Positions 3,474-20,543 of a stretch of DNA of 64,000 nucleotides are shown here, piece by piece; position 1 is the stretch's first letter; every line of letters starts with the position of its first letter. The translations under genes were made by a program, and so were the position numbers. Source of the stretch: Bradyrhizobium sp. CER78. Lineage in GTDB: Bacteria > Pseudomonadota > Alphaproteobacteria > Rhizobiales > Xanthobacteraceae. Location: positions 1 through 64,000 of the forward strand of contig NZ_JARVWP010000007.1 in the NCBI RefSeq assembly GCF_029846235.1, in the 5' to 3' direction. The notes under the pieces are model-generated. The model saw nothing but the letters and a program-made list of their open reading frames with translations, did no database searches and was not told the origin of the DNA.

Positions 3474-4007
3474 CTAGGCGGGGACGTAGGTCAACCGGAT
3501 CGTGTTGTCGCCCAGCCGGTCGCTAGCCACGAGGCGGAGCGGCGCGCGCGGGCCGGTGAAGAATGGCTTGCCGCGACCGAGCACGACGGGCCGGAGGTAG
3601 ATTTGATACTCATCGATCAGGCCGAGCTCGGTCAGGCATCCCGCGAGCTCCGGTCCGGCGACTTCGATCTCACCGTCGAGCCGGGCCTTCAACTCGCGCA
3701 CCGCCACCGCGAGATCGCCCGCGACCAGGATCGCGTTGGGCCCGACCGACGTCAGCGAACGCGACACGACCCATTTTGGCCGGCTCCGCCACGCGGCCGC
3801 GTACTCGCGCTCCTCCGCGCCCCAATCGGGGAGGTCGTCGTCCCAGTAGCGCATCACCTCGTACATGCGGCGGCCGTACAACATACCGGTCACGCCACGC
3901 ACCTGCTCGATGAAATGACGAAACAGCCCAGGTTCTGGCGGCATCGGCTGGTCGTGATCGACATAGCCGTCGAGCGGCTGGTTCAATCCAAAGACGAGCT
4001 TCGCCAT
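3474..4007 (-). CDS. Dihydrofolate reductase / RibD C-terminal-like reductase
   Basis: 177 aa from the ATG at 4007 (GGAG ten bases upstream; a GTG at 4022 is possible). It matches the RibD-C/DHFR-like family: N-terminal strand AKLVFGLNQPLDGYVD, the GMLYGRRMYEVMRYW region, VVSRSL, and a C-terminal half with VAGPELAGCLTELGLIDEYQIYLRPVVLGRGKPFF, which forms the NADPH-binding core in this family. These short proteins are common in clusters with YCII, SRPBCC and ArsR genes and have no assigned substrate. It is the last minus-strand gene after three YCII genes; a 233-bp repeat-bearing gap leaves cotranscription uncertain. Confidence 0.85.
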   Translation of the reverse strand: MAKLVFGLNQPLDGYVDHDQPMPPEPGLFRHFIEQVRGVTGMLYGRRMYEVMRYWDDDLPDWGAEEREYAAAWRSRPKWVVSRSLTSVGPNAILVAGDLAVAVRELKARLDGEIEVAGPELAGCLTELGLIDEYQIYLRPVVLGRGKPFFTGPRAPLRLVASDRLGDNTIRLTYVPA

Positions 4008-4109
4008 CGCGCAAATCTCCACCTAGAGTTCAGATTGGATTGAGCCGGCGTGACGTGAGAACGACGTCGCTCCCGGGGGATGGGGCTGTCTCCGCATGTC
4101 GCATCGTGG

Positions 4110-4254
4110 AGAAAGCCCCCACCCGCATCGCATCGATGATGCGATGCGACCTAAGAGCGAGCTTCGCTCGTCTCGACCCCGCAAGCGGGAGAGGTTCAGG
4201 GAACTGGTGGCCTAACGCCCCGGGGCCTAACGCCCGGGGACTAGCGTCCCGGGA
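4110..4254. repeat. Family A-like palindrome and three short tandem copies at a gene end
   Basis: About 4120-4200 holds a palindrome with GCATCGCATCGATGATGCG and a GCGGG-type arm resembling family A. Next to it, 4211-4254 is three near-identical copies of a 15-bp unit (CCTAACGCCCCGGGG, then variants). The third copy contains the stop codon of the YCII gene ending at 4241, so the gene end seems to have been duplicated in place twice. Confidence 0.6.
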
Positions 4255-4603
4255 TCGGCAGCACCGGCATGATCTCCACGGCTTCGCCCGGGAAGATCGA
4301 AAAGTGCGGGTGGTTCTCGAACAGCTTTGCCGCCGCCTCATGCGAGGGCGCGCGCACCACGGTGAAGCCGGTCAGATGATTGGTGATGTCGGCGGTGCCG
4401 CCCTCGCCGACCTTCTTGGTCTTGCCCAGCGGACCGCCCATCTCGACGATCACGTCGTGGTGCTTCTCGACCCAGGCGCCCCACGCGGCCATGCCCTGCT
4501 GCTCCTTGGCGCGCCGCTCGGCCTCCGGCATCGCGTTCCAGGCCGCCATCCGCGCGCCGGTCTTGCTGCCGAGATAGACGGCGAGGAAGGTGTTGCTGCT
4601 CAT
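4241..4603 (-). CDS. YCII-related protein, divergent (no DGPF motif)
   Basis: 120 aa from the ATG at 4603 with GGAG seven bases upstream. The dimeric ferredoxin-like YCII fold is suggested by length, by FLAVYLGSKTGARMAAW at the start and by the final VEIMPVLPIPGR strand. Where its neighbours have DGPF this protein has MGGPLGKTKKV. It is the most divergent of four YCII genes in the window. It follows two other YCII genes on the same strand, separated from them by a family C repeat. YCII proteins have been linked to ECF sigma factors of group 42, one of which is encoded at 15.4-16.7 kb. Biochemical role unknown. Confidence 0.8.
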   Translation of the reverse strand: MSSNTFLAVYLGSKTGARMAAWNAMPEAERRAKEQQGMAAWGAWVEKHHDVIVEMGGPLGKTKKVGEGGTADITNHLTGFTVVRAPSHEAAAKLFENHPHFSIFPGEAVEIMPVLPIPGR

Positions 4604-4700
4604 CGTGCTTCTCCGTTGTGGTGGTTGGTGGTGTGACGATCGGTTGGTGGCGCGGTGACGCCGTGCGGCGGCATCGCTTCTTGTTCGACTCCTTCGTTTT

Positions 4701-4748
4701 GCGCATGGTCTTCCGGAAAACCGCTGCGCACTTTTCCGGATCATGCGC
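4701..4748. repeat. Dispersed repeat family C
   Basis: One copy of the element with TTCCGGAAAACCGC and CACTTTTCCGGATCATGC. It ends at the stop codon of the YCII gene at 4748. Other copies are near 11.6, 12.8, 23.2, 23.9, 39.9 and 58.1 kb. Confidence 0.8.
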
Positions 4749-5173
4749 TAACGCAGCGCCTTGCCCCAGCCGCCCTGCGGATGCTCGAAGGTGGCGGCCG
4801 CCTGCTGCACCTCCTCGGAGAAATCGGCCATCTCCTGCACCTGGCGGATCTCGATCATCTCGTTCGCGGTGGCCGGACACTGCTTTGCCCATTCGATCGC
4901 TTCCGCGCGCGAGGCGACCTCGATCATCCAGAAGCCGCCGATCACTTCCTTGGCCTCGGTGAACGGACCGTCGATCACGACGGGCTCGCCGGCGTCGAAC
5001 TTGACGCGCGCGCCGGCGGCCGGCGGATGCAACCCCTCCAGCGTGATCAGCACGCCGGCGTCCTTCAGCGCCTGATTGTACCGCATCATCGCGGCGACGC
5101 GTTCGGGGTCGAGCTCGAGCTTGGCGGGGGCGGATTCGTAGCCGAGCGGGATCATCAGCATCATGAAGCGCAT
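4748..5173 (-). CDS. YCII (DGPF) family protein
   Basis: 141 aa from the ATG at 5173 (MRFMMLMIPLGYESAPAKLE), the usual family start; longer in-frame starts run into a repeat. The diagnostic DGPFTEAKEVIGGFWMIE lies near residues 75-92, followed by ASRAEAIEWAKQCP and IEIRQVQEM, the ferredoxin-like strands of the fold. Members often accompany group 42 ECF sigma factors and may be small enzymes or binding proteins. The gene lies 155 bp after another YCII gene with no promoter match of its own, so readthrough from the promoter at 5797-5824 is likely. Confidence 0.88.
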   Translation of the reverse strand: MRFMMLMIPLGYESAPAKLELDPERVAAMMRYNQALKDAGVLITLEGLHPPAAGARVKFDAGEPVVIDGPFTEAKEVIGGFWMIEVASRAEAIEWAKQCPATANEMIEIRQVQEMADFSEEVQQAAATFEHPQGGWGKALR

Positions 5174-5328
5174 TGGTCGGGTTTCCCTATCTGTTGAATC
5201 TCTCGCAATCTTCACTTTCGTCATTCCGGGAAGCCCGACGCGACGGCGGCCCGGAATCCACGACCTGCGATCGTGATCATGTATTCCAGGCGCATCGCCT
5301 GCGCGATATCGCGGAACGACGACGGGCG

Positions 5329-5745
5329 TCATTTCTTTCCAGCCTGCGCGCGCAGGCGCTCGCCGCGTTCACGCAGCTCGGGCGTCAGCGCCTCGCCGAA
5401 ATCGTCTGCCGAGAACACCTGGCGGATTTCGATCTCGGAGCCGCCGTCGAACGGTGCGCGCTTCATCCAGCCGATCGCTTCATCGAGCGATTTGGTCTCG
5501 ATCAGCCAGAAGCCGCAGACCAGATCGCCGCTCAGGCTGAACGGGCCGTGCGACACCGTGCTCTGTCCGCCGGCATATTTGACCCGCGCGCCCTTGTTGG
5601 TCGGATGCAGGCCCTCGCCGGCCTGCATCACGCCGGCCTTGACCATCTCCTCGTTGAACTTGCCCATTGCCGCGAGCAGCTCGGTGCTCGGCATCACCCC
5701 GGCCTCGGTATCCTTGTTCGCCTTCACGATCACCCTGAACTTCAT
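5329..5745 (-). CDS. YCII (DGPF) family protein, first of three
   Basis: 138 aa from the ATG at 5745 (MKFRVIVKANKDTEAGVMP). The family motif is HGPFSLSGDLVCGFWLIE in place of DGPFTEAKE, followed by SLDEAIGWMKRAP and a C-terminal IEIRQVFSADDFGE. An ECF42-type promoter match lies at 5797-5824, giving a leader of about 45 bases. Two further YCII genes and a RibD-like reductase follow on the same strand and may be read from it. The protein probably dimerises; the function is unknown. Confidence 0.88.
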   Translation of the reverse strand: MKFRVIVKANKDTEAGVMPSTELLAAMGKFNEEMVKAGVMQAGEGLHPTNKGARVKYAGGQSTVSHGPFSLSGDLVCGFWLIETKSLDEAIGWMKRAPFDGGSEIEIRQVFSADDFGEALTPELRERGERLRAQAGKK

Positions 5746-5796
5746 CGTCGTGCTCCGTTGTCTCCGAGCCGATCTCAGCACCGGCGCTCGGTTGAA

Positions 5797-5824
5797 AGAC
5801 GATGGAGGATTTGCGCGGCCGACA
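5797..5824 (-). promoter_or_regulatory. Candidate ECF42 promoter of the YCII gene
   Basis: On the minus strand: TGTCGG (complement of 5819-5824), 17 bp, then CGTCT (complement of 5797-5801). It is one of six matches with the same spacing in this region. Predicted transcription start is about 45 bp before the ATG at 5745. Confidence 0.75.
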
Positions 5825-5863
5825 CGGTCATTGAAATTATTTCCGAGGTCATTGACACGCGCG

Positions 5864-7069
5864 CTAGTCGTCGATGGCCTGATAGGCGAGCGTCCAGAAA
5901 TCCGAATACACCGGCAGCGGCTGCGGCGAATCCATCATGCGCTGGGTCAGCAGGATTCCGGTCATCGCCTCGCGCGGGTCGGAATACCAGGAAGTGCCGT
6001 AACCGCCGTCCCAGCCATAGCGGCCTGGCACATCACAGAGATCGTCCCGCGTGGTCACGACCGACAGCCCGAAACCCCAGCCCCGCGCGCCGAGCAAAAA
6101 CTCGGAGCCAAGTTTCTGCTCCGGCGTAATTTGGTTCGAGGTCATAAGCTCGACCGAGGGACGCGACAGGATCCGCTCGGTGCCGAGCCGCCCGCCATTC
6201 AGCATCATCTGGGCGAAGGCGTTGAAATCGTCCGCGGTCGACACCAGCCCGGCGCCGCCATTCTCGAATGCCGGCGGCGCGGCATATTTGCCGGTCGCGG
6301 GTTCGTCGAACACTTTCAGCGTGCCGGTCGCGTGATCGCTGGCATAGCAGGTCGCAAACCGCGTCAGCTTGTGTTGCGGCACGTGGAAAGCCGTATCCTT
6401 CATGCCGAGCGGTTCAAAGATCCGTTGCTGCAGGAAGCCCGCGAACGAGGTTCCGGCAACGCGCGCGATCAGGACGCCGAGGATCAGGCTTCCGGTGTTG
6501 TAGAGCCAGCGCTCGCCGGGCTGATAGGCCAGCGGCAGCGTGCCGTAGCGGCGCAGCAACTCGTCCGGCGGAAACGACGGAAATACCGGCCCGGGTGCGA
6601 AGCCGGCATCCGCGATCGCCATCTGGATCGGATAGCGCGCCGGATACATCGGGATCATGCCGAGCCCGAGGCGGAAGGTGAGCAGATCGCGCAGCGTGAT
6701 CGCGCGCCTTGCCGGCACCGTGTCATCGACCTCGGATTCGATGGTGCGCAACACACGGCGATCGGCGAGCTCGGGCAGCCAGCGATCGAGGGGATCATCG
6801 AGCCTGAGCCGGCATTCCTCGACCAGGATCATCGCGGCGACCGCCGTCACCGGCTTGGTCATCGAGGAAATGCGGAAGATGGTGTCGCGCTGCATCGGCG
6901 GCCCGCCCACCGCCATGCGTCCGAGCACATCGGCATGGATCTCGCCGCGACGGCTGACCAGCGCCACGAGGCCGGGTACGTCGCCATCATCGATATGCCG
7001 CGCCAGCCCCTCGCGCATGCGTCCGAGCCGTGCCTGCGACAGACCACTGCCCTCACTTGCTATCGACAT
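5864..7069 (-). CDS. Serine hydrolase of the beta-lactamase fold (class C / EstB-like)
   Basis: 401 aa from the ATG at 7069; the longer open frame upstream overlaps the SnoaL gene and is rejected. The class C beta-lactamase fold shows the S-x-x-K motif SMTK (Ser69), the YxN motif in LYNTGS and a WDGGYG segment in the place of the third motif. There is no signal peptide, so a cytoplasmic esterase or amidase is likelier than a beta-lactamase. It lies 77 bp downstream of a SnoaL-like gene and is probably cotranscribed with it from the promoter at 7587-7614. The substrate is unknown. Confidence 0.88.
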   Translation of the reverse strand: MSIASEGSGLSQARLGRMREGLARHIDDGDVPGLVALVSRRGEIHADVLGRMAVGGPPMQRDTIFRISSMTKPVTAVAAMILVEECRLRLDDPLDRWLPELADRRVLRTIESEVDDTVPARRAITLRDLLTFRLGLGMIPMYPARYPIQMAIADAGFAPGPVFPSFPPDELLRRYGTLPLAYQPGERWLYNTGSLILGVLIARVAGTSFAGFLQQRIFEPLGMKDTAFHVPQHKLTRFATCYASDHATGTLKVFDEPATGKYAAPPAFENGGAGLVSTADDFNAFAQMMLNGGRLGTERILSRPSVELMTSNQITPEQKLGSEFLLGARGWGFGLSVVTTRDDLCDVPGRYGWDGGYGTSWYSDPREAMTGILLTQRMMDSPQPLPVYSDFWTLAYQAIDD

Positions 7070-7146
7070 TGTCCGGTTTCCTTTGCAGAGTTCACGCTCG
7101 CCGACGACGACGCCCGGGCGAGCGCGCGATTGATCACGAGGCTGCC

Positions 7147-7518
7147 CTATCGCTCCTGCCTGACGAGTTCGCCGTCCTGATGCGACGGGCCGAAATAGAC
7201 GTCGATCCGCGACACCTTGTCGCCGTCGAACACGAAGAACTCGGTGTTGCGGAAGCTCTTGCCGTCCTTGGCCACGCATCGATAGGTGACGAAGGCCTCG
7301 ATGCCGTCGACCATGATGCGCTCGATCTCGTGACGGCCGATCCAGCCACTGTCGCGCCAGCACTCGGCGAAATAGCGTGGCTTGTCGATGTTCTCGCCAT
7401 AGGGCGTCGAGAAGCGGAAATCCTCCGAAAACGCCGCCTCGACGCTTGCGCGGTCATTGGCGAGATAGGCGGCGAAGAGGGAGCGGATGATCTCCGCCCT
7501 GTTGCCAGCTGCAGCCAT
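7147..7518 (-). CDS. SnoaL/NTF2-like small protein
   Basis: 123 aa from the ATG at 7518, with GGAG six bases upstream. It has the NTF2-like cone fold pattern: an initial helix (NRAEIIRSLFAAYLANDRASVEAAFSEDFRFSTP), then MVDGIEAFVTYRCVAKDGKSFRNTEFFVFDGDKVSRIDVYFG, typical of SnoaL-type proteins that bind or isomerise small hydrophobic molecules. It is the promoter-proximal gene ahead of the beta-lactamase-fold hydrolase and has its own ECF42-type promoter match. The reaction is unknown. Confidence 0.85.
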   Translation of the reverse strand: MAAAGNRAEIIRSLFAAYLANDRASVEAAFSEDFRFSTPYGENIDKPRYFAECWRDSGWIGRHEIERIMVDGIEAFVTYRCVAKDGKSFRNTEFFVFDGDKVSRIDVYFGPSHQDGELVRQER

Positions 7519-7586
7519 GTCGTCTCCACACAGATCGCCCGGGCCTCCGGAGCGCCAAGCGCTCCAGAACCCGGGCCTCAGGTACA

Positions 7587-7614
7587 AGACGAATGGAACG
7601 GCGCGAAAGCGACA
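7587..7614 (-). promoter_or_regulatory. Candidate ECF42 promoter of the SnoaL / hydrolase unit
   Basis: On the minus strand: TGTCGC (complement of 7609-7614), 17 bp, CGTCT (complement of 7587-7591). The only one of the six sites with C as the sixth base of the -35 element. Leader about 60 bases. Confidence 0.72.
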
Positions 7615-7660
7615 TCGCGCCGTCATTTATTTTCGGGACGGGACCGGACCAGGGTTCCCG

Positions 7661-8314
7661 TCAGGACTCCTGCGGGAACATGCCGAAATAAGGCTCGGCC
7701 TCGTCGAGGACGCGCGCGAAGGACGGCCGCGCCTTCAGCCGCTCGAGATAGGCAGCGAGATGCCGGTGGCCCTCTCCGATCGGCTCGACCTTGTTGCCAT
7801 AGAACAGCGCCGGGGCGGCGGAGCAATCGGCCAGCGAGAAGCGTTCGCCCATCATCCAGCCGCCATGCGCGAGGTATTTATCCAGGATCGCATAGGAGGT
7901 ACGGAGCTGCGCCCGCGCCTCGGCGACGCCATGCGGGTCCTTCTTGTCCGCCGGCCGCAGCCGGTCGCCGATGACCTTCTGCATCGGCAGATGGACATAG
8001 AGATCGAGGAAACGATCGCGCAGCCGGGTCTGCAGCGCGAGGTCCGGGTCGTCCGATATCAGCTTGGCGGTGCCGGGATAATGCCGGTCTAGATATTCGA
8101 TGACGATGCTCGATTCAGGCACCGTCTCGTCCCTCGTCTCGTCGCGCAGCACGGGGAAGCGACCGATCGGCCACAGCGCGAGCAGCGCCGCGCGCTCGGC
8201 GGGATCGCCGAGATTGACCATGTGCGGCGTGAACGGCGCACCGTTCTCGTACAGTGCGACCAGCGCCTTCCAGCAGAACGAGGACAGCGGGTGGTAATGC
8301 AGGGTGAGCGACAT
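7661..8314 (-). CDS. Glutathione S-transferase family protein
   Basis: 217 aa from the ATG at 8314 with GGAG six bases upstream. The N-terminal thioredoxin-like domain (about 1-82) starts SLTLHYHPLSSFCWK and contains the cis-Pro FPVLRD and the PESSIVIEYLD glutathione-gamma-glutamyl site; the helical domain has GERFSLADCSAAPALFY, the N-capping box of GSTs. It probably conjugates or reduces electrophiles with glutathione in the cytoplasm. A promoter match at 8345-8372 places it in the proposed ECF42 regulon as a single-gene unit. Confidence 0.92.
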   Translation of the reverse strand: MSLTLHYHPLSSFCWKALVALYENGAPFTPHMVNLGDPAERAALLALWPIGRFPVLRDETRDETVPESSIVIEYLDRHYPGTAKLISDDPDLALQTRLRDRFLDLYVHLPMQKVIGDRLRPADKKDPHGVAEARAQLRTSYAILDKYLAHGGWMMGERFSLADCSAAPALFYGNKVEPIGEGHRHLAAYLERLKARPSFARVLDEAEPYFGMFPQES

Positions 8315-8344
8315 CAAAACTCCATCATGGAACCAGAGGTCCGA

Positions 8345-8372
8345 GGACGAACCACAGGCCACCCTGCCGACA
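8345..8372 (-). promoter_or_regulatory. Candidate ECF42 promoter of the GST gene
   Basis: On the minus strand: TGTCGG (complement of 8367-8372), 17 bp, CGTCC (complement of 8345-8349). Leader about 25 bases to the ATG at 8314. Confidence 0.72.
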
Positions 8373-8411
8373 TCTCGTGCCGCGATTTATTTTGCTCTCG
8401 CCGGAGCGCGG

Positions 8412-8566
8412 TAGCCAGCTCGCTGTCCGAGATCAAGGCTGCGATCGCCGGCGTCAACGAATACATCACCTCCACCTCCACCGCCGCCGCGGTCGAGGAG
8501 CAGAGCATCGTGACGCAGGACATGTCCACAAACATGCAGCGCGCTTCCGCCGAACTCGCGGCGTAA
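8412..8566 (+). pseudogene. 3' fragment of a methyl-accepting chemotaxis protein
   Basis: A frame ending at 8566 encodes about 48 residues that look like the extreme C-terminal helix of a receptor signalling domain: SEIKAAIAGVNEY, then AAAVEEQSIVTQDMSTNMQRASAE. Everything before it (over 300 residues expected) is missing, and the preceding DNA carries the promoter of the GST gene on the other strand. It is a gene relic left next to a second broken gene. Confidence 0.7.
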
Positions 8567-8576
8567 GCAGCGGTGC

Positions 8577-8633
8577 GATCCTCGAAGGATGAGCGTCCCG
8601 GGCTGGGGGCCGCGCATCCTTCGAGACGCGCCT
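8577..8633. repeat. Dispersed repeat family B, shortened copy
   Basis: CTCGAAGGATGAGCG...CATCCTTCGAGACGCGCC, an inverted pair of CGAAGGATG arms lacking the outer CCTCAGGATGACGG ends seen in full copies. Confidence 0.7.
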
Positions 8634-8734
8634 TAGATTGCGCAGAGCCGGCTAGTACAGATTGCTCCATCTAGCCATTGACCACCGCGAATGTTGCGTC
8701 ATTCTGATGACGCGACAACGCGTGAGCAATTGCG

Positions 8735-9057: not shown

Positions 9058-9147
9058 GGTGCGAGCGGAGCGAGCCTCGAAGGATGGATCGGCCACAGAC
9101 GGGCCGTGCATCCTTCGAGACGCGCTTCGCGCTCCTCAGGATGACGG
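9050..9147. repeat. Dispersed repeat family B
   Basis: Full copy: CATCCTGAGGTGCGAGCGGAG at one end, paired CGAAGGATG / CATCCTTCG arms in the middle, and CTCCTCAGGATGACGG at the other. It overlaps the last codons of the broken GIY-YIG gene. Confidence 0.85.
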
Positions 9148-9221
9148 AGAAATATCATATCGTCGGTTGTTGACACCTCTGCATAAAGGTCGCAGACGGT
9201 CGGGACTTCCTGCCCGAACCG

Positions 9222-10022: not shown

Positions 10023-10049
10023 CGTCGACCGCGCATTCAATGCTGCTCC

Positions 10050-13298: not shown

Positions 13299-13308
13299 CG
13301 CGCGATCT

Positions 13309-13414
13309 CGTAGGGTGGGTTAGCCGAAGGCGTAACCCACCGTTGTCGTCACACAGCCACTTGCGCGGATGAGAGACCGGCGGCGGGTTACGCTTCGCTA
13401 ACCCGCCCTACGAT
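13309..13414. repeat. Palindromic repeat with GTAGGGTGGGTTAG / CTAACCCGCCCTAC ends
   Basis: A 106-bp element with outer inverted ends and an inner GCGTAACCCACC / GCGGGTTACGC pair. It lies between converging genes and could act as a bidirectional terminator. One copy in this window. Confidence 0.8.
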
Positions 13415-13431
13415 TCTGGCGTGTCTGCGAC

Positions 13432-13842
13432 CTACATCTGCTGCGGACAGTTCACCATCCAGGGGATGCCGAACTGATCCACGCACATGCCGAAGCCGTT
13501 GGAGAAGAAGGTCTTGCCGAAAGGCATGGTGACCGTGCCGCCCTCGGACAGCGCCTTGAAGCGGCGTTCGGCCTCAGCGGGATCCTCGACCTGCAGCGCG
13601 ACGTGGAATCCCTGCGCCTTCTGGAAATGGCCGGGCGGGGCGTCGGAGGCCATGATGATCTCGCCGTCGATCGTGAGGCGGGCATGCATGATCTTGTCCT
13701 TCCAGCCGGGCGGCGTCTGCATCTCCGCATTGCCCTCGCCGTAGGGATAGGTTTCCTCGATCCGCGCACCGAGAACCTTCTGGTAGAAGTTCAGCGCGGC
13801 GCCGCAATTGCCGTCATAGGAGAGATAGGGGTTGACCTGCAT
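13432..13842 (-). CDS. VOC family protein, PhnB-like
   Basis: 136 aa. Opens with MQVNPYLSYDGNCGAALNFY and contains KVLGARIEETYPY, then IMASDAPPG and a closing NGFGMCVDQFGIPWMVN, the two-beta-alpha-beta-beta-beta modules of PhnB-type vicinal oxygen chelate proteins. These are usually annotated as glyoxalase- or bleomycin-resistance-like, with unknown substrate. It is the last gene after DoxX and SRPBCC genes on the same strand, probably read from the promoter at 14995-15022. The 79-bp gap to the SRPBCC gene holds no promoter match. Confidence 0.88.
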   Translation of the reverse strand: MQVNPYLSYDGNCGAALNFYQKVLGARIEETYPYGEGNAEMQTPPGWKDKIMHARLTIDGEIIMASDAPPGHFQKAQGFHVALQVEDPAEAERRFKALSEGGTVTMPFGKTFFSNGFGMCVDQFGIPWMVNCPQQM

Positions 13843-13921
13843 CGCATGCTCCCTTGGGTAGATTCTGGTTCTGGCGCATTTTCTTCACGCGAACCGGTAA
13901 ACCACTTCGCTCGAAAACGCG

Positions 13922-14458
13922 CTATTTTTCCGTCAGCTTCTTCAGATTGGCGAGACCGACCTCGAAATCCTTGCCGATCATGTGGTCCAGGTTCATGAAC
14001 ACCTGCATCACCTTCGACATGAAGACGGCCGGACCATACATGGTCCATGTGACGCTGGTCGCATCTCCCTGCGGCAGCATTGTGAACTCGGCGGTGTTGT
14101 GGCCCTCGAACGGCTTGAGGAAGTCGAGCTTGATGACGACCTTCGTCGGCGCGGACGACTGCAGGATCTCCATGCGGCCGGTGCCGACATTCTTGTTGCC
14201 GTCCCAGGCATAGACCGCCCCCTGCCCGCGCCCGGCGCCGTCATAGGTGCGCTTCATGTCCGGATCCCGGTTCTCGTAGGGCGACCAGGCCGTCCACTGC
14301 CGGAAATCGTCGATCAGCGGAAATATCCGTTCGGCCGGCGCCTTGATGCTGGTGGCGCGCGTGACGCGGAACGTGCTCGGCTTGGTCGCCGCAAGGATGA
14401 GAACGACGGCAATCGCGACCGCAAGGACAATCGCGATGATGGCAAGGGTCTCGAACAT
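13922..14458 (-). CDS. Membrane-anchored SRPBCC protein (polyketide cyclase-like)
   Basis: 178 aa from the ATG at 14458 with GGAG seven bases upstream. Residues 1-28 are a transmembrane anchor (FETLAIIAIVLAVAIAVVLILAATKP). The rest is a START/Bet v 1 type ligand-binding domain: SIKAPAERIFPLIDDFRQWTAWSPYENRDPDMKRTYDG, KVVIKLDFLKPFEGHNTAEFTM, and a long C-terminal helix. It probably binds a hydrophobic ligand at the membrane. It sits 88 bp after the DoxX gene and before the VOC gene, suggesting one transcription unit. Confidence 0.87.
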   Translation of the reverse strand: MFETLAIIAIVLAVAIAVVLILAATKPSTFRVTRATSIKAPAERIFPLIDDFRQWTAWSPYENRDPDMKRTYDGAGRGQGAVYAWDGNKNVGTGRMEILQSSAPTKVVIKLDFLKPFEGHNTAEFTMLPQGDATSVTWTMYGPAVFMSKVMQVFMNLDHMIGKDFEVGLANLKKLTEK

Positions 14459-14546
14459 GATGGTCTCCAAATGCATGAATCGAAGAATTAGAGCGTTTCG
14501 AACGAAGTGAGTAGCGGTTCGCATCAAGCAAACGCGTCAAACCAAC

Positions 14547-14957
14547 TCAGCGGCGGAACGGCAGCAGCGCACGCAGATTGCCGTCGCGCAGATAGAGCCC
14601 GCCCCACACCATCAGGCCGAGATAGAGCCCGAACAGCGTATGGGTGAACAGCGGGCTGCCGATCCGCACATGCGATGCGATCGCGCCGCCGAGATAGCCG
14701 GTGAGCAGGATGGCGCCGAGGATCGAGGTCGGCGGCACCGAGTACAACAGCGTGCAGACGATGGTGATGATGCCGAGGCTGCGCGCCAGCGTATCGCTCG
14801 CGCCCCAGCCCATCTTGTCCATGGTCTCGGTGACGACCGACAATGGCACCAGCTTGATGGCGCCATCGAACAGCAGGAAGAGAACGACCACGCCGCTCAT
14901 GACGCGGCCGGTGATGCGGGCGGGCTTTGAGACTTCGGTCTCGACGATCGTCGACAT
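14547..14957 (-). CDS. DoxX-like integral membrane protein
   Basis: 136 aa from the ATG at 14957. Four hydrophobic helices are visible: VMSGVVVLFLLFDGAIKLV, SLGIITIVCTLLYSVP, SILGAILLTGYLGGAIASH and HTLFGLYLGLMVWGGLYL. GYLGGAIASHVRIG is typical of the DoxX family. DoxX-like proteins are linked to redox or thiol stress in some bacteria, but no role is proven for this subtype. First gene of a DoxX-SRPBCC-VOC unit with an ECF42-type promoter match about 38 bp upstream. Confidence 0.85.
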   Translation of the reverse strand: MSTIVETEVSKPARITGRVMSGVVVLFLLFDGAIKLVPLSVVTETMDKMGWGASDTLARSLGIITIVCTLLYSVPPTSILGAILLTGYLGGAIASHVRIGSPLFTHTLFGLYLGLMVWGGLYLRDGNLRALLPFRR

Positions 14958-14994
14958 GACGGGCTCCGTAACGCTTGGTGATGCTCTGTCATCT

Positions 14995-15022
14995 AGACGA
15001 ACGGTGGGATACGGGGCCGACA
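14995..15022 (-). promoter_or_regulatory. Candidate ECF42 promoter of the DoxX-SRPBCC-VOC unit
   Basis: On the minus strand: TGTCGG (complement of 15017-15022), 17 bp, CGTCT (complement of 14995-14999). Leader about 30 bases. Confidence 0.75.
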
Positions 15023-15113
15023 CTGCGCGGGAAGATTTTTTGGAGGGCGCGACGAGAGCTGTGACCGCGCAACCAGACAGCGAAGACGATGTCGATCATC
15101 TCACCCGGGGCTT

Positions 15114-15340
15114 ACCCCTCTCCCCACCCTCCCCCGCAAGGGGGGAGGGAGCCTGACCTGCGTGCTCACCTCACGTAATTTCCGCACGCTCACCTCACGT
15201 AATTGTTGGCGTGGCCGCGAACGAGTTTGCTCGCCGCACGCTGATCCGCGGTTTGACGCGTAGGTTCTGCGTTTGTGTAAGGGACACACCGGCGGTAGGG
15301 TTCCCTCCCCCCTTGCGGGGGAGGGTTAGGGAGAGGGGTA
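15114..15340. repeat. Dispersed repeat family A, inverted pair
   Basis: Copies at 15114-15154 and 15296-15340 in opposite orientation around about 140 bp of unique sequence that itself has a short direct repeat (CTCACCTCACGTAATT at 15165-15202). It fills the gap between the ECF42 stop and the DoxX promoter. Confidence 0.85.
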
Positions 15341-15395
15341 CCGCACGGGAAGTCTCCCAACTCGGACACGAACAACGCGCGACCAGGCGCGCGCC

Positions 15396-16673
15396 CTACT
15401 TCGCCTTCACATTGCGCGGCTGGCTGTCGCGCATCAGGCGGTCGATGTGCATGCGGATGTGGGCCGCCTCGGCCGTGGTGTTGGCGAGCGCGATGGCGCG
15501 GTCGAAGGCGACACGCGCCTCCTCGTTGCGGCCGAGCTGCATCAGGAAGGCGCCGCGCACGCCGAAATAATGGAAGTAATTCGACAGCCGCGGCGCCAGC
15601 GGCTCGATCATCTCGAGCGCGGCTTCCGCCCCCTTCACCTTGGAGACCGCAACCGCGCGATTGAGCGTGATCACCGGCGACGGCTGCATGACCTCGAGCG
15701 CGCCGTAGAGCAGGTCGATCTGGGTCCAGTCGGTATCCTCGGGCTTTTCCGCGCGGGCGTGCAGCGCGGCGATCGCCGCCTGCACCTGATAGGGCCCGCT
15801 GCGGCGATGGCGCATCGCCTTGTCGATCAGCGCTGCGCCCTCGGCGATCAGCTTCTGGTTCCACAGAGTGCGGTCCTGGTCGTCGAGCAGGATCACCTGG
15901 CCGTCGGCATCGAAACGTGCCTCGGCGCGGGCGTGCTGCAGCAACAGCAGCGCGGTCAGCCCCATGATCTCCGGCTCGCTTTGGAACAGCCGCAGCAGCA
16001 GGCGGGCGAGGCGGATCGCCTCCTCGCACAGCGGCGAGCGGATCTCGGCAGTGTCGCCGCTCGCCGAATAGCCCTCGTTGAAGATCAAATAGATCATCGC
16101 CGCGACCGACGCGAGCCGCTCGCTGCGCTCGACCGCGCCCGGCGTCTCGAACGGCACGTTGGCGTCGGCGACGCGCGCCTTGGCCCGCGTGATGCGCTGC
16201 TCCATCGCGGCCTCCGAGACCAGGAAGGCGCGCGCGATCTGCTTCACCGTGAGGCCGGAGACGATGCGCAGCGCCAGCGCGATCTGCTGGGTCGGCGGCA
16301 GGTCCTTGTGACAGCAGATGAACAGCAGCCGCAGGATGTCGTCGCGATAATGCGAGCCGTCGAGCCGCTCGGCGATCTCGTCCTCGGCGTCGTCGAGGTC
16401 GGAGATCGCCCGGTCGTCGTCGGGCAGCGCCTCCTGCTTCTTGCTGCGCCTGATGTCGTCGATCGCGACATTGCGGCCGACCATGATCAGCCACGACGCC
16501 GGGTCGCGCGGCGGGCCGTTCTGCGGCCAGCTCTTCAGCGCCCGCAGGCAGGCGTTCTGGAAGGCTTCCTCGGCGGTGTCGAGATTGCGGAAGTAGCGCA
16601 GCAATGCGCCAACCGCCTGGGGACGCGCCGACGTCAGCGCGGCATCGATCCAGGCGGTGTCGGTCACGCTCAC
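15396..16673 (-). CDS. ECF42-type RNA polymerase sigma factor with C-terminal extension
   Basis: 425 aa, more than twice a usual ECF sigma factor. Sigma2 (about 15-80) has YFRNLDTAEEAFQNACLRAL and the DIRRSKK end; sigma4 (about 115-165) has LPPTQQIALALRIVSGLTVKQIARAFLVSEAAMEQRI. Residues about 180-425 are a helical TPR-like DUF6596 extension (IYLIFNEGYSAS, LLLLQHAR, GPYQVQAAIAALHARA, VITLNRAVAVSKVKG). In group 42 this extension is thought to replace an anti-sigma factor as control element. The GTG start overlaps the TGA of the upstream YCII gene by four bases. It probably drives the six promoters found here, including its own. Confidence 0.93.
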   Translation of the reverse strand: MSVTDTAWIDAALTSARPQAVGALLRYFRNLDTAEEAFQNACLRALKSWPQNGPPRDPASWLIMVGRNVAIDDIRRSKKQEALPDDDRAISDLDDAEDEIAERLDGSHYRDDILRLLFICCHKDLPPTQQIALALRIVSGLTVKQIARAFLVSEAAMEQRITRAKARVADANVPFETPGAVERSERLASVAAMIYLIFNEGYSASGDTAEIRSPLCEEAIRLARLLLRLFQSEPEIMGLTALLLLQHARAEARFDADGQVILLDDQDRTLWNQKLIAEGAALIDKAMRHRRSGPYQVQAAIAALHARAEKPEDTDWTQIDLLYGALEVMQPSPVITLNRAVAVSKVKGAEAALEMIEPLAPRLSNYFHYFGVRGAFLMQLGRNEEARVAFDRAIALANTTAEAAHIRMHIDRLMRDSQPRNVKAK

Positions 16674-17038
16674 GTCTTTGCGCTCCCCGGAGTGAAGTAT
16701 CCGACCGGGCGGATCTCATAGGTGCCGCCGGGATTGGCCTCGCCGAGGTCGCGCGCGATGTCGAGCACCTCGTCGAGATTCTTGCCCTCGACCAGATAGA
16801 AGCCGAGCAGCTGCTCCTTGGTCTCGGCGAACGGGCCGTCCAGCACCAGCGGCGGGTTTTCCTTGCGCAGCGTGGTCGCAGCCGTGGTCGGCAACAGCCG
16901 CGCCACCGGGCCGAGCTTGCCCTGCTTGGCGAGCTTGTCCTGCACGACGGACAATTTCTGCATGACCGAGGCGTCGTGCTCCTTGCTCCAGGAACCGACC
17001 ATGTCTTCGTCATGATAGCAGAGGATGGCGTACAGCAT
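16670..17038 (-). CDS. YCII (DGPF) protein coupled to the ECF42 sigma factor
   Basis: 122 aa from the ATG at 17038 (MLYAILCYHDEDMVG), the usual family start. The ATG at 17059 is less likely because it would fall at the predicted transcription start. The family motif DGPFAETKEQLLGFYLVEGKNLDEVL is intact. Its stop overlaps the sigma-factor start (GTGA), so the two are translationally coupled; this YCII-ECF42 pairing is the hallmark arrangement of group 42. It may sense or act on the inducing compound, but this is untested. Confidence 0.92.
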   Translation of the reverse strand: MLYAILCYHDEDMVGSWSKEHDASVMQKLSVVQDKLAKQGKLGPVARLLPTTAATTLRKENPPLVLDGPFAETKEQLLGFYLVEGKNLDEVLDIARDLGEANPGGTYEIRPVGYFTPGSAKT

Positions 17039-17064
17039 CGAAAAGGCGTCTCCGTTCATTGCAA

Positions 17065-17092
17065 GAACGAACGATTATGCCCGCTGCCGACA
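17065..17092 (-). promoter_or_regulatory. Candidate autoregulated ECF42 promoter
   Basis: On the minus strand: TGTCGG (complement of 17087-17092), 17 bp, CGTTC (complement of 17065-17069). It lies about 27 bp before the YCII start codon at 17038, so the sigma factor would activate its own operon. Confidence 0.78.
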
Positions 17093-17228
17093 GCGTGAGC
17101 GAAAGAAATTTCGGTTCCGGATGCCGGCGATGGATTTTGGCCGAAACGTCATGGCGCGCCGCGACAGACCGAAGGCCGTGGTCGCGGCGATGGCACGTCA
17201 GGTCATCGCCATGACGACGCCGCTGCGA

Positions 17229-17516
17229 TCACCAGTAGACACCGTAGCGGGCGGCGATGCGGCGCGCCTTGGCTTCATCGCTCTCCCGGCGGCTGGTCTG
17301 GCTCCGCTTCACCGGGCGCGATGCCTGCGCCCTCAAGGCCTCGGCCGGCTGGGCCTGCGACGGCGCCGGCTGGGCCTCGGCCTGATCAGGAGCAACGGCC
17401 GGTTGCGCCTGAGCCGGTGTATCGGCGTCTGCGAGCACGAGACCACGGCTCTGGCCCGCGTGCGCCGTGGCGGCGGTGGCTGCGATGAAAGCCGCGATCA
17501 GGATCAGCTTGCGCAT
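17229..17516 (-). CDS. Small exported hypothetical protein
   Basis: 95 aa from the ATG at 17516, with GGGGAGAA upstream. Residues 1-20 are a signal peptide (MRKLILIAAFIAATAATAHA). Then comes a Gln/Pro/Ala-rich stretch (AQAQPAVAPDQAEAQPAPSQ) and a basic C-terminus ending KARRIAARYGVYW. This pattern, low-complexity linker plus a short conserved basic tail, recurs in Bradyrhizobium genomes as unnamed secreted proteins. No function can be given. It diverges from the neighbouring dehydrogenase gene. Confidence 0.7.
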   Translation of the reverse strand: MRKLILIAAFIAATAATAHAGQSRGLVLADADTPAQAQPAVAPDQAEAQPAPSQAQPAEALRAQASRPVKRSQTSRRESDEAKARRIAARYGVYW

Positions 17517-17605
17517 GGAAGTTCTCCCCTGATGATGGCAGGAGACTAGGGAGCGGGCCGGACCCGCTCTGTGACATTCGTCACATTGATTTTGGAGGTA
17601 TCTGG

Positions 17606-18571
17606 ATGGGTAAGGGCGCACTGGCGCTGCTGATCAATGGCGGCTCGGAAAACTGGTCGTCGGCGCGCTGGAAGGCGCGGTTCGACACGGTCTGCCCGGA
17701 TCGCCCGGTGGTGCTGCTGCCGGACGGCGCGCTCGATCCCGCGGAGGTGCATTACGCCGCGGTGTGGAAACCGAAGCCGGGCGAGCTCGCTTCGTTCAAG
17801 AACCTGCGCGTGATCTTCAATCTCGGCGCCGGCGTCGATGCGCTGATGGCCGACCACTCGCTGCCCGACGTGCCGCTGGTGCGGGTCTCGGTCTCCGATC
17901 TCACCGACCGCATGACCGAATATGTCGTGCTGCACGTGCTGATGCATCACCGTCAGGAGCTGTATCTGCGCGAGTCGCAACGACAGAAGCGCTGGGCGCC
18001 GGACTATCAATGGGCGGCGAACGCCATCACGGTCGGCGTGATGGGGCTCGGCACGCTCGGCGCAGCCGCAGCGCAGGCGCTGCGCGCGCTCGGCTTCCGT
18101 GTCGTCGGCTGGAGCCGCAGCGAGAAGCGGATCGACGGCATCGCCTGCCATCACGGCAACGACGGGCTCGACACGTTCCTGCGCGCGACCAACATCCTGG
18201 TCTGCCTGCTGCCGCTGACGCCGGATACGCGGCATGTGCTGAACCGCGATGCGTTCGCCAAGCTGAACCGCACCAGCCCGCTCGGCGCACCCGTCATCAT
18301 CAATGCCGGCCGCGGCGGCCTGCAGAACGAAGCAGATATTTTGCGCGCGCTCGACGACGGCACGCTGGGCGCCGCCTCGCTCGACGTCTTCGAGACCGAG
18401 CCGCTGCCCGAGGCGAGCCCGTTCTGGAGCCATCCGAGGGTGGTGCTGACGCCGCACAACGCCGCCGACACCGACGCCGACGAGATCTCGAAATACGTCG
18501 CGCAGCAGATCGCGCGCTTCGAGCAAGGCGGCGAGCTGGAGAACGTGGTCGATCGCAAGCGGGGGTACTAG
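17606..18571 (+). CDS. D-2-hydroxyacid dehydrogenase, glyoxylate/hydroxypyruvate reductase A-like
   Basis: 321 aa; GGAGG lies nine bases before the ATG. The fold is a D-isomer 2-hydroxyacid dehydrogenase with substrate-domain LGAGVDALM, the Rossmann motif GVMGLGTLGAAAAQAL near residue 143, the catalytic Arg in INAGRGGLQNEADIL, the Glu in DVFETEPLP and the His in LTPHNAA. The extended N-terminus and WKPKPGEL match the GhrA subgroup, which reduces glyoxylate and hydroxypyruvate with NADPH. Single gene between repeats. Confidence 0.88.
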   Translation: MGKGALALLINGGSENWSSARWKARFDTVCPDRPVVLLPDGALDPAEVHYAAVWKPKPGELASFKNLRVIFNLGAGVDALMADHSLPDVPLVRVSVSDLTDRMTEYVVLHVLMHHRQELYLRESQRQKRWAPDYQWAANAITVGVMGLGTLGAAAAQALRALGFRVVGWSRSEKRIDGIACHHGNDGLDTFLRATNILVCLLPLTPDTRHVLNRDAFAKLNRTSPLGAPVIINAGRGGLQNEADILRALDDGTLGAASLDVFETEPLPEASPFWSHPRVVLTPHNAADTDADEISKYVAQQIARFEQGGELENVVDRKRGY

Positions 18572-18579
18572 CGCGAAGC

Positions 18580-18665
18580 CGTCATTGCGAGGAGCGAAGC
18601 GACGAAGCAATCCATGCCACCGCAAACGCGGACAGATGGATTGCTTCGCTCGCTCGCAATGACGG
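18580..18665. repeat. Palindromic repeat, GTCATTGCGAGGAGCGAAGC type
   Basis: Outer inverted ends GTCATTGCGAG and CTCGCAATGAC, inner GAAGCAATCCAT / ATGGATTGCTTC arms. It lies just past the dehydrogenase stop and before the convergent SRPBCC gene. Confidence 0.85.
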
Positions 18666-18684
18666 ATGAGAGATAACGGCCGTC

Positions 18685-19176
18685 TCAACCCATCTCGGCA
18701 ACGACCTCGGCGAGCCGATCGTAGGCGGGCGCGACGCCCTTATCGATGCCGGAGTTGAGATGGCCGTCACGGGCCTCCTTGGTCGGATGCTTGATGGTGG
18801 TGGTCAGCGTCGTCGTGCCGGCTTCCTCGACGAAGGTCGAGATGACGAGATATTCCTCGCTGGTGAAGCCCGGCATCGAGAACGTTTCGCCGAATGCCAA
18901 CCGCTCCGGACGCACCACTTCGCGATAGGTGCCGGTGAGTTCATGCTCGATGCCCTCGGACGAGCGGAACACGAACCGATAGGCGCCGCCGACCCGCAGG
19001 TCGACTTCACACACCGGCATCGTGAGCTGCTCGCAGCCAAGCCAGCGCATCAGATATTCCGGCTTTGTCATCGCATCGAACACAAAGCGCCGCGGCGCGT
19101 CGAACTGGCGCGTCATGGCGAATTCGAAATCCGACGGGGTCGTGATCCTCAGCGTCTTATCCACGCGTGCGTCCAC
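18685..19176 (-). CDS. SRPBCC protein of the AHSA1/Aha1 type
   Basis: 163 aa from a GTG at 19176, preceded by AAGGAG at good spacing. The AHSA1 pattern is clear: FEFAMTRQFDAPRRFVFDAMTKPEYLMRWLG, VGGAYRFVFRSSEG, GTYREVVRPERLAFGETF, and a final helix. Such proteins bind hydrophobic ligands. Its start lies inside the last 20 bases of an ArsR gene, so the two form the ArsR-SRPBCC pair seen widely in bacteria. It may be the effector protein released from ArsR repression. Confidence 0.92.
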   Translation of the reverse strand: MDARVDKTLRITTPSDFEFAMTRQFDAPRRFVFDAMTKPEYLMRWLGCEQLTMPVCEVDLRVGGAYRFVFRSSEGIEHELTGTYREVVRPERLAFGETFSMPGFTSEEYLVISTFVEEAGTTTLTTTIKHPTKEARDGHLNSGIDKGVAPAYDRLAEVVAEMG

Positions 19177-19561
19177 GTTGCTTCTCCTTGGTTACTCTGA
19201 CTTTACGTTGACTACGCGGCGGGGCCTTTGCGGCCTCCTCCACCTTCATCTCCTCGAGCAGACCGTCGAGGCGGTTGAAGCTCTCGTCCCAGAAGCGGCG
19301 GAAATTGCCGAGCCAGCCATCGACCTGCTTGAACGAGGCGGGCGCGATCCGGCATGGCCGCCACTGCGCCTCGCGCCCGCGCGAGATCAGACCTGCATGC
19401 TCCAGCACCTTCAGGTGCTTGGAAATCGCCGGCAGGCTCATGTCGAACGGCTTTGCCAGCTCCATCACCGAGGTCTCGCCGAGCGCAAGCCGCGCCAGGA
19501 TCGCGCGCCGGGTCGGGTCGGCCAGCGCCGCGAAGGTTGAACTGAGGGGGTCCAGCGGCAT
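19157..19561 (-). CDS. ArsR family regulator
   Basis: 134 aa. Winged helix with FAALADPTRRAILARLALGETSVMELAKPFDMSLPAISKHLKVLEHAGLI. The usual metal-binding Cys residues of ArsR/SmtB are absent, as in the SRPBCC-linked subgroup, which is thought to answer to organic signals rather than metals. The basic C-terminal tail (SQRKVRVTKEKQRGRTRG) overlaps the SRPBCC gene. A symmetric operator lies right upstream of the ATG, pointing to autorepression. No ECF42 promoter match precedes it. Confidence 0.93.
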   Translation of the reverse strand: MPLDPLSSTFAALADPTRRAILARLALGETSVMELAKPFDMSLPAISKHLKVLEHAGLISRGREAQWRPCRIAPASFKQVDGWLGNFRRFWDESFNRLDGLLEEMKVEEAAKAPPRSQRKVRVTKEKQRGRTRG

Positions 19562-19565
19562 GTAC

Positions 19566-19597
19566 TTAGCTCATCGGTTAAATAACCTTTGGGCTAA
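19566..19597. promoter_or_regulatory. ArsR operator, two head-to-head sites
   Basis: TTAGC-N5-GGTTA (19566-19580) and TAACC-N5-GCTAA (19583-19597) mirror each other around AA, with GGTTAAATAACC as the inner palindrome. The sites lie 5-36 bp upstream of the ArsR ATG at 19561. The half-site GGTTAA type is common for ArsR proteins paired with SRPBCC genes. Confidence 0.75.
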
Positions 19598-19657
19598 ATA
19601 CACATGAACGGCGCCCACGTCAACGGCCGTTTTTGGCCGCTGGCGCAGGTAACGGCC

Positions 19658-19810
19658 CTTCCCTCCCTCTCCCCGTTCTTACGGGGAGAGGGTTGGGGTG
19701 AGGGGCTGCTTTCCGCATATCCGGCGGTCACCGCATTCGCTGAGACTCCCCTCACCCGGATCGCATCTCGCGATGCGATCCGACCTCTCCCCGCAAGCAG
19801 GGCGAGGTGA
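19658..19810. repeat. Dispersed repeat family A, inverted pair
   Basis: Left copy 19658-19705 (CCCTCTCCCCGTTCTTACGG type), right copy 19745-19810 in reverse with an extra GCATCTCGCGATGC hairpin. Located between the converging reads of ArsR upstream DNA and the reductase stop. Confidence 0.8.
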
Positions 19811-19831
19811 AGCCGAGCCCATTTCGCAATT

Positions 19832-20479
19832 CTACGATTTGCGCGCGAAAGTGACGTGCGTGGCGTTCGGGCTCGCGACGTTTGAGACAACGGCGTAACC
19901 GAGCGCGGGCAGATCGATGCCGGCGAACAGATTCTCGCCTGCGCCAAGCAGCACCGGCGACAGCGCCAGCTGCACCTCGTCGAGCAGCCGCGCCTCAAGG
20001 AATTGGCGCACCAGCGACACGCCTCCGCCGACCCGGATGTCCTTGTCCCCAGCAACAGCACGCGCGCGCTCTAGCGCTGCGTGAATGCCATCGGTCACGA
20101 AATGGAAAGTGGTGCCGCCTTCCATTTCGATGTCAGGCCGCGCGTGATGGGTCAGCACATAGGTCGGCGTGTGATACGGCGGATTGGGGCCCCACCAGCC
20201 CTTCCAGGACTCGTCGGGCCACGGCCCACGGATCGGGCCGAACATGTTCCGCCCGAGGATCCAGGCGCCGATATTCTCCATCGACTTGCGCGCGATCTCG
20301 TCATCGAGCCCGGTGCTTCCGCCGTCCTGGCCGAATGTCTGGCGAAACGTCCGTGTCTGGAGGAACCAGCCGGGCAACACCATGCCGCCTTCGCCGAATG
20401 GATTTTCAAGGCTCTGGCGCGGCGCCGCGCCAAATCCGTCGATCGAGACCGAGAATGCTGAAGTTCTGACTTTTCCCAT
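19832..20479 (-). CDS. Dihydrofolate reductase / RibD C-terminal-like reductase
   Basis: 215 aa from the ATG at 20479. RibD-C family: SVSIDGFGAAPRQSLENPFGEGG, SMENIGAWILGRNMFGPI, WWGPNPPYHTPTYVLTHHARPD, then the NADPH-binding part VAGDKDIRVGGGVSLVRQFLEARLLDEVQLALSPVLLGAGENLF. It is longer than the paralogue at 3.5-4.0 kb and belongs to the subgroup often next to YCII/ArsR/SRPBCC genes. An ECF42-type promoter match sits 37 bp upstream, making it the outermost member of the proposed regulon. Confidence 0.9.
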   Translation of the reverse strand: MGKVRTSAFSVSIDGFGAAPRQSLENPFGEGGMVLPGWFLQTRTFRQTFGQDGGSTGLDDEIARKSMENIGAWILGRNMFGPIRGPWPDESWKGWWGPNPPYHTPTYVLTHHARPDIEMEGGTTFHFVTDGIHAALERARAVAGDKDIRVGGGVSLVRQFLEARLLDEVQLALSPVLLGAGENLFAGIDLPALGYAVVSNVASPNATHVTFARKS

Positions 20480-20515
20480 GAGATTCCGCTTCCATAAGTG
20501 GGGAGACCTTACGGA

Positions 20516-20543
20516 AGACGGGCAGGAAAACCAGCGCCCGACA
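20516..20543 (-). promoter_or_regulatory. Candidate ECF42 promoter of the RibD-like reductase
   Basis: On the minus strand: TGTCGG (complement of 20538-20543), 17 bp, CGTCT (complement of 20516-20520). Leader about 30 bases to the ATG at 20479. Confidence 0.75.

Follow-up and report, generated by a model that had tools for sequence, protein, structure and literature searches.

Which form of RNA polymerase reads the six closely similar sites on the minus strand of a 64-kb stretch of DNA of Bradyrhizobium sp. CER78 (the window), each of which lies shortly before a gene or operon? A reading made from the letters of the window alone (the sequence-only reading) had proposed that these sites are the promoters of a small stress or detoxification regulon under one self-activating sigma factor of group 42 of the extracytoplasmic function family (ECF42), which is encoded among them. 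Based on pattern and profile scans, Pfam assignments, comparison with related loci, and promoters mapped in Sinorhizobium meliloti, the six sites are very probably promoters read by RNA polymerase that carries the window's own ECF42-type sigma factor.

Six putative promoters and a sigma factor in the window

The pattern TGTCGN-N17-CGTYY, which was used for both the window and the whole genome (7.97 Mb), matched the window seven times against 0.97 matches expected, and at least seven matches were obtained in 0 of 100 shuffles. Six of the seven are the sites of the sequence-only reading, all of them present at the claimed minus-strand positions with a spacer of exactly 17 bp (Table 1), and the seventh lies at 26069 on the plus strand. 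The distance from the end of the -10 box to the likely start codon is 26 bp for YCIIa, 30 bp for the GST gene, 36 bp for the RibD-like gene, 37 bp for the DoxX gene, 51 bp for YCIIb, and 68 bp for the SnoaL gene; the sequence-only reading gave roughly 30-75 bp. The gene types named earlier were likewise recovered by Pfam as YCII, SnoaL_2, GST, DoxX_2, Polyketide_cyc2, Glyoxalase, RibD_C, and a sigma factor with DUF6596, and the gene described as a hydrolase matched the Beta-lactamase family (PF00144).

The sigma protein consists of 425 amino acids, in which Sigma70_r2 and Sigma70_r4_2 are followed by a C-terminal extension assigned to DUF6596. Its gene lies directly downstream of a YCII gene (YCIIa), an ortholog of which occurs at all 80 related loci described below, and translational coupling of the two is probable because they overlap by four bases (GTGA). 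The Pfam scan of the extension gave no family of tetratricopeptide repeats (TPR), and weak PDB matches of residues 325-410 (E ~0.5-0.6) led to chains of RPAP3, which we take to be a TPR protein. No anti-sigma family was found among the Pfam-scanned neighbours of the sigma gene (YCII, DoxX, SRPBCC, VOC, AHSA1, RibD_C, and a 2-hydroxyacid dehydrogenase on the opposite strand), and a 95-amino-acid frame at 17229-17516 gave no Pfam match.

Judged by sequence, the system of the window is a member of the already known ECF42 kind. In S. meliloti, the promoters listed under RpoE10 (ECF42) read TGTCGG-N17-CGTC at SMc01149, SMb20475, and SMc01151, and the start of SMc01149 was mapped by two methods (PMC6180224). 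When offsets are counted from the printed sequences, with the last letter taken as the start, this start lies at offset 35 from the first T of TGTCG, and the motif, the 17-bp spacer, and the inferred start of the window promoters are the same as those of the mapped RpoE10 promoters. Among 89 non-redundant promoters of relatives, 92% have a purine at offset 35 and 61% have C at offset 34. The RpoE10 system is also alike in that a sigma factor with a C-terminal extension is encoded behind a YCII gene, and in that its targets include glyoxalase-like proteins and a predicted hydrophobic-ligand binder. In contrast, six genes alone were raised by RpoE10 overexpression and self-activation was not seen, whereas about ten candidate promoters and more families (GST, DoxX, RibD-like, SnoaL, and MFS) are found here; no response to RpoE10 was seen for SMc01151 (PMC6180224).

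The ECF42 sigma factors Sven_0747, Sven_4377, and Sven_7131 of Streptomyces venezuelae resemble the present ones in that several paralogs occur per genome with a YCII gene nearby, and their TPR-rich C-terminal extension is essential for activity (PMC8999054). ECF-10 of Pseudomonas putida belongs to the same group and has a similar genomic context, and it has been reported to affect biofilm formation as well as antibiotic and oxidative stress (PMC6180224, PMC8999054). A paper referenced by PMC8999054 calls ECF42 sigma factors "widely distributed" in its title. In the accessible parts of this literature, neither the signal of ECF42 sigma factors nor the use of targets of the YCII, VOC, and SRPBCC types was found to be established.

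Conservation in related loci

Among 339 loci that encode a relative of the sigma factor, the best 80, i.e. the closest ones, were compared; 74 of them are from Bradyrhizobium, and the nearest, also from this genus, encode a sigma factor with up to 99% identity. The strict form TGTCGN-N17-CGTCYW gave 190 sites on the plus strand, 176 of which lie 10-140 bp before an ortholog of a target gene, and none on the opposite strand. With a spacer of 16 bp no site upstream of a target was obtained and with 18 bp only three, and the remaining spacers within 12-22 bp gave none upstream of a target and 0-9 scattered sites per strand. A looser form of the motif gave 239 target-upstream sites. The motif stands upstream of YCIIa in 77/80 loci, of YCIIb in 24/24, of RibD1 in 19/19, and of DoxX in 38/46. 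It was found in 18/52 cases before SRPBCC, in 3/9 before the hydrolase, and in 3/74 before VOC. In many of the loci without DoxX the promoter precedes SRPBCC or VOC, just as it precedes YCIIc where there is no YCIIb; the small counts for genes in second or third place fit such an operon arrangement. No motif was found in these loci upstream of TetR (0/62), ArsR (0/16), AHSA1 (0/16), YCIId (0/30), or sigma genes (0/80).

An A/T tract of the form AAAWWWTTT occupies a fixed place 18 to 10 bp before TGTCG. Its A/T content per position is 68-96% in the 239 target sites versus 14-64% in the other sites of the 80 loci, and it spans about -53 to -45 from the start point, i.e. the region of UP elements. 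ECF promoters in general can need UP elements (PMC10880074, PMC3817407), and no description of the AAAWWWTTT tract for ECF42 promoters was found in the accessible parts of the literature.

The regulon across the genome and the class

A profile (R1) was built from 50 promoters of relatives, hand-picked from the 89 non-redundant ones (<72% mutual identity; from the 239 sites). In the own genome, where 150 of 7469 first-look candidates were scored, all six window sites are within the top nine of the scored matches. The top 11 have E < 0.006 and the next has E 0.06. Beyond the window, these 11 comprise two 3-dmu-9_3-mt/VOC genes (C22:20130 and C4:76148, given as contig and position), an MFS transporter gene (C4:53295), a VOC gene whose -35 box is altered to CGTCGG (C39:54979), and the operon of a second ECF42 sigma factor on contig C9 (E 0.003). 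A DUF899 gene (C12:93632, E 0.09) and a third ECF42 operon on contig C35 (E 0.30) matched more weakly. The earlier count of six promoters was thus too small; once the sites before the three VOC genes, the MFS gene, and the C9 sigma operon are included, the regulon in this genome is estimated at about ten promoters.

Bradyrhizobium genomes without the window-type sigma factor failed as negative controls, because just 2 of 146 had no close match (G041 and the 75%-complete G097), and a class-wide comparison was therefore used instead. In this comparison the A/T tract and the motif were combined into a composite pattern, the presence of ECF42 was scored by PF20239, and the counts for genomes with and without ECF42 were sorted by hand. 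Of the 192 alphaproteobacterial genomes compared, 22/35 with PF20239 contain the composite pattern versus 19/157 without (Fisher p 1.8e-9), and 21/34 with PF20239 contain it when the own genome is excluded (p 5.4e-9). No such bias was found for the mirror-image composite (3/35 with PF20239 and 21/157 without). Furthermore, R1 was scanned at class level under stricter filters, with 80 candidates scored per genome, 34 ECF42-negative genomes chosen by size, and sums made by hand. At E < 0.001, a cut-off picked after the list had been viewed, there were 27 matches in 17/34 ECF42-positive genomes and 0 in the 34 ECF42-negative ones; at E <= 0.05, 73 matches were distributed over 28/34 ECF42-positive genomes.

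In ECF42-positive loci of other families, nine genes that follow motif sites, picked by eye from 23, were assigned by Pfam to TfoX_N, DUF1428, VOC (two), alpha/beta hydrolase, SnoaL, and SRPBCC/AHSA1 (three), and several further ones appear YCII-like by eye. Twenty distal sites in relatives were chosen by eye from the first matches listed, in which a site may recur; they precede VOC, GST, SRPBCC/AHSA1, and YCII genes and once Ku genes (nine of the 20 genes Pfam-scanned, the rest named by eye).

Two side observations concern such distal sites. In one relative (L170, ~1688-1715, minus strand), an ECF42-type promoter with an A/T tract lies before a Ku gene of DNA end joining. An inverted repeat crosses the spacer of a distal VOC promoter in relatives (L152-L154; GGATGGC ... 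GCCATCC in L152) and could be a further control site.

Three ECF42 paralogs and their promoter letters

The own genome encodes three ECF42 sigma factors that are 41-46% identical, and PF20239 is found in 145/146 Bradyrhizobium genomes, mostly in two to three copies. The two further ECF42-YCII operons of this genome and those of relatives (L061, L062, and L231-L270) have promoter letters of their own and a similar A/T tract. The genus-level set of paralogs comprised 40 ECF42 loci taken from the top of the list, of which 35 are of one type (B) and five of another (C). The operon promoters read TGTCGG/CGTCYT in the window type, TGTCGT/CGAC[TC]G in the B type, and TGTCGA/CGTC[AG] in the C type. 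The sixth base of the -35 box is G in 77/79 YCIIa sites, T in 36/36 B-type, and A in 6/6 C-type Bradyrhizobium operons. A B-type regulon pattern matched the own genome at four sites versus one for its mirror image, and one of the four is the B-type operon itself.

The promoter letters are paralleled by two residues of the sigma factor in a comparison of 23 window-type sequences (the window, 12 of the 80 loci, and 10 of 15 at class level), 36 of the B type, and eight of the C type; five divergent window-like, 11 B-like, and one C-like class-level sequences were left out. Residue 158 is E in 23/23 window-type, A or G in 36/36 B-type, and A or S in 8/8 C-type sequences, and residue 162 is T in the window type, L/V in the B type, and V/L in the C type. 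In a phmmer alignment to 6in7_B (labelled sigma-H factor), which is presumably AlgU, these residues face the R and F of VRSRIFRAR, and we assume that the matching residues of Escherichia coli sigma E contact the -35 DNA. The S. venezuelae ECF42 motif is reportedly TGTCGA with CGA or CGT, which resembles the C- and B-type promoters here and not the window type. The group 42 motif given in the sequence-only reading (TGTCGA and CG[A/T]C) suits the two paralogous ECF42 sigma factors and is a poorer fit for the window sigma. No description of paralog-specific ECF42 promoter letters (G/T/A) with residues 158/162 was found in the accessible parts of the literature.

A nested box in the promoter of the sigma operon

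In the promoter of the sigma operon, the spacer contains a CATAAT sequence of consensus CATANT. At offset 13 from the first T of TGTCG, this box is present in 70/79 YCIIa sites versus 0/160 other target promoters of the 80 loci, and in 18/23 versus 0/105 after removal of sites that are at least 80% alike. It recurs at the identical offset in 7/29 fetched class-level ECF42 loci, from five families, and no description of it within the spacer of an ECF42 sigma operon was found in the accessible parts of the literature. The simplest reading is an overlapping housekeeping -10 box, which would provide basal expression of the sigma factor and exclude the ECF42 polymerase while it is occupied. The restriction of the box to the YCIIa sites and its recurrence at class level favour this function, as do the retained A2 and T6 of the hexamer and the start expected at about offset 25, which agrees with the start of SMc01151 from 5'-rapid amplification of cDNA ends, read as offset 26, within the ECF42 -10 box (PMC6180224). 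On the other hand, a scan of 13300-20700 with the sigma70 consensus gave no site, so that a convincing -35 partner is missing; no CATANT stands at that offset in the S. meliloti sequence given in the available part of PMC6180224, and the box could be the site of another regulator. The housekeeping function is therefore given somewhat less than an even chance.

The box bears on the claim that the sigma factor activates itself. Self-activation of the window sigma is likely, since the motif precedes the sigma operon in 77/80 loci; the counterexample is S. meliloti, in which the YCII gene in front of rpoE10 showed no rise when RpoE10 was overexpressed (PMC6180224). Taken together, the paralogs and the nested box allow the tentative and rather doubtful proposal of three insulated ECF42 systems with a one-base code (G, T, or A in sixth place of the -35 box, accompanied by changes of the -10 box) set by residues 158 and 162, to which a CATANT-nested self-control that gives basal expression and competes with the own polymerase is added. 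Within this proposal, the overlapping control would explain the failure of the S. meliloti relative to activate itself.

Alternative explanations

The attribution of the six sites to an ECF42-directed regulon, as in the sequence-only reading, is supported by the architecture of the sigma factor, the match to mapped S. meliloti promoters, and the association with ECF42 presence. The following results weigh against it. In the whole genome, the bare pattern gave 123 exact matches versus 89 for its mirror image. In addition to the sites before targets, the looser form matched the 80 loci at 54 further places on the plus strand and at 64 on the minus strand, and its mirror pattern gave 33 sites. 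Coverage is incomplete for GST (27/37), SnoaL (11/34), and YCIIc (17/38), which is due in part to co-transcription. The composite pattern is missing from 13/35 genomes with PF20239, and 6/34 ECF42-positive genomes have no R1 match; conversely, 15 matches at E <= 0.05, two of them at E 0.001, occur in 14/34 ECF42-negative genomes. The MFS site has no A/T tract, and the frames behind two strong R1 matches in other families (L278 and L283) gave no match in Pfam. B- and C-like sigma factors have mixed promoter letters outside Bradyrhizobium, and overexpression of RpoE10 left the YCII gene upstream of rpoE10 unraised (PMC6180224). The bare counts would suit a chance or compositional pattern of a GC-rich genome, and bare-motif enrichment, which was 36 versus 25 for a longer form, was rejected as proof; the whole-genome scan envisaged earlier thus gave a mild enrichment, and selectivity is seen through conservation. 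Because the motif alone is just mildly over-represented, the regulon is defined by position, the upstream A/T tract, and conservation. Chance is practically refuted by the 80 loci, in which the sites are conserved, favour one strand, keep a strict spacer, and are specific to certain genes, together with the class-wide ECF42 association, and the earlier judgement that chance is very unlikely stands on these grounds.

A regulator of another kind would have to use the block as its operator. Two blocks at a fixed spacing could be contacted by a dimer, and upstream of the RibD-like gene there is a gene, judged TetR-like by eye, with relatives in most of the 80 loci. However, neither block is an inverted repeat of the other, the two correspond to mapped -35 and -10 boxes at the proper distance from the start (PMC6180224), and the TetR orthologs are without the motif, so that an operator is very improbable. 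Recognition by a paralogous ECF42 sigma factor (C35 or C9) or by all three, in which case the window sigma would not be the sole master, is rather unlikely. The promoters of all three have TGTCG-N18-CG[T/A]C with a similar A/T tract, all three are encoded in this genome, and the C9 operon promoter is itself found with the window-type profile. In the Bradyrhizobium loci examined, however, the sixth -35 base and the -10 box vary with the sigma type, none of the 89 window-type promoters has T in sixth place and 7% have A there, and the three sigma factors are of modest identity and differ at residues 158 and 162 of region 4.2.

Proposed mechanism and significance

A possible mechanism is proposed for the regulon under the window sigma. 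Region 4 of the sigma factor would read TGTCGG and region 2 CGTCYT across a spacer fixed at 17 bp, and the start of transcription may lie near offset 35 from the first T of TGTCG. The AAAWWWTTT tract is probably bound by the C-terminal domains of the alpha subunits, which could strengthen the promoter. The sigma factor would be made from its own YCIIa-sigma operon behind a promoter of the identical type, and the signal probably acts through the DUF6596/TPR-type C-terminal extension and perhaps also through the co-translated YCII protein. The active sigma factor may then turn on scattered small ligand-binding or detoxification proteins (YCII, VOC, SRPBCC, DoxX, SnoaL, GST, RibD-like, hydrolase, and perhaps MFS). 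Since the promoters used by the two paralogs have a different sixth -35 base and a different -10 box, insulation of the three systems from one another is probable.

The comparison yields a regulon of about ten promoters that can be put to the test in a well-studied genus, and it describes the promoter well enough for members to be predicted elsewhere. The three natural sigma-promoter sets could serve as insulated switches, and the nested CATANT box is a candidate explanation for the failed self-activation in S. meliloti. The paralog code and the nested box are the parts worth an experiment.

Genes and operons behind the predicted promoters

Table 1. Predicted promoters, promoter elements, and genes of the putative ECF42 regulon in the window
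Feature	Position	Strand	Basis and remarks
ECF42-type promoter, YCIIa-sigma operon	17065..17092	-	TGTCGG-N17-CGTTC; predicted start ~17057; scan and sequence; kept upstream of YCIIa in 77/80 loci
A/T tract, UP-element-like, sigma operon	17102..17110	-	10-18 bp before -35 box
CATAAT (CATANT consensus) inside spacer	17074..17079	-	Offsets 13-18, counted from first T of TGTCG; may be a basal promoter that overlaps the ECF42-type one
ECF42-type promoter, DoxX-SRPBCC-VOC operon	14995..15022	-	A/T tract 15032-15040; scan, sequence, profile
ECF42-type promoter, GST gene	8345..8372	-	A/T tract 8382-8390; scan, sequence, profile
ECF42-type promoter, SnoaL-hydrolase operon	7587..7614	-	TGTCGC variant; A/T tract 7624-7632; scan, sequence, profile
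ECF42-type promoter, YCIIb	5797..5824	-	A/T tract 5834-5842; scan, sequence, profile
ECF42-type promoter, RibD-like reductase gene	20516..20543	-	A/T tract 20553-20561; scan, sequence, profile
YCIIa, YCII domain, first gene of sigma operon	16670..17038	-	Pfam, sequence
ECF42-type sigma factor	15396..16673	-	Pfam: Sigma70_r2, Sigma70_r4_2, DUF6596 extension
DoxX-like gene	14547..14957	-	Pfam; motif upstream in 38/46 orthologs
SRPBCC (Polyketide_cyc2) gene	13922..14458	-	Pfam
VOC / glyoxalase-fold gene	13432..13842	-	Pfam
GST-like gene	7661..8314	-	Pfam; motif upstream in 27/37 orthologs
SnoaL-like gene	7147..7518	-	Pfam
Serine hydrolase, beta-lactamase / PBP-like family	5864..7069	-	Pfam PF00144
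YCIIb gene	5329..5745	-	Pfam; motif upstream in 24/24 orthologs
YCIIc gene, probably on YCIIb transcript	4748..5173	-	Pfam; motif directly upstream in 17/38 orthologs
YCIId gene	4241..4603	-	Weak YCII match, 22.7 bits, under 24-bit cut-off; motif before 0/30 orthologs
RibD_C-domain reductase gene	19832..20479	-	Pfam; motif upstream in 19/19 orthologs

At the left edge of the region considered by the sequence-only reading, a second RibD-like gene (3474-4007) has no motif upstream in the motif scan, and none was found upstream of 18 distant RibD2 relatives (32-36% identical) in the 80 loci (0/18). Two class-level genomes without a PF20239 match have one R1 match each at E 0.001 (L292 in G176 and L293 in G285), and the L292 site precedes a GST-type gene; a related sigma factor may use the L292 site, or both matches may be due to chance. 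Just before the GST promoter, the stretch 8380-8560 resembles by eye, on the plus strand, the last part of a methyl-accepting chemotaxis gene and is possibly a remnant. Repeat-like intergenic stretches, also noted by eye, lie between the operons at 9100-9170, 15100-15350, and 19660-19830 and are rich in CCCTCTCCCC and similar blocks.

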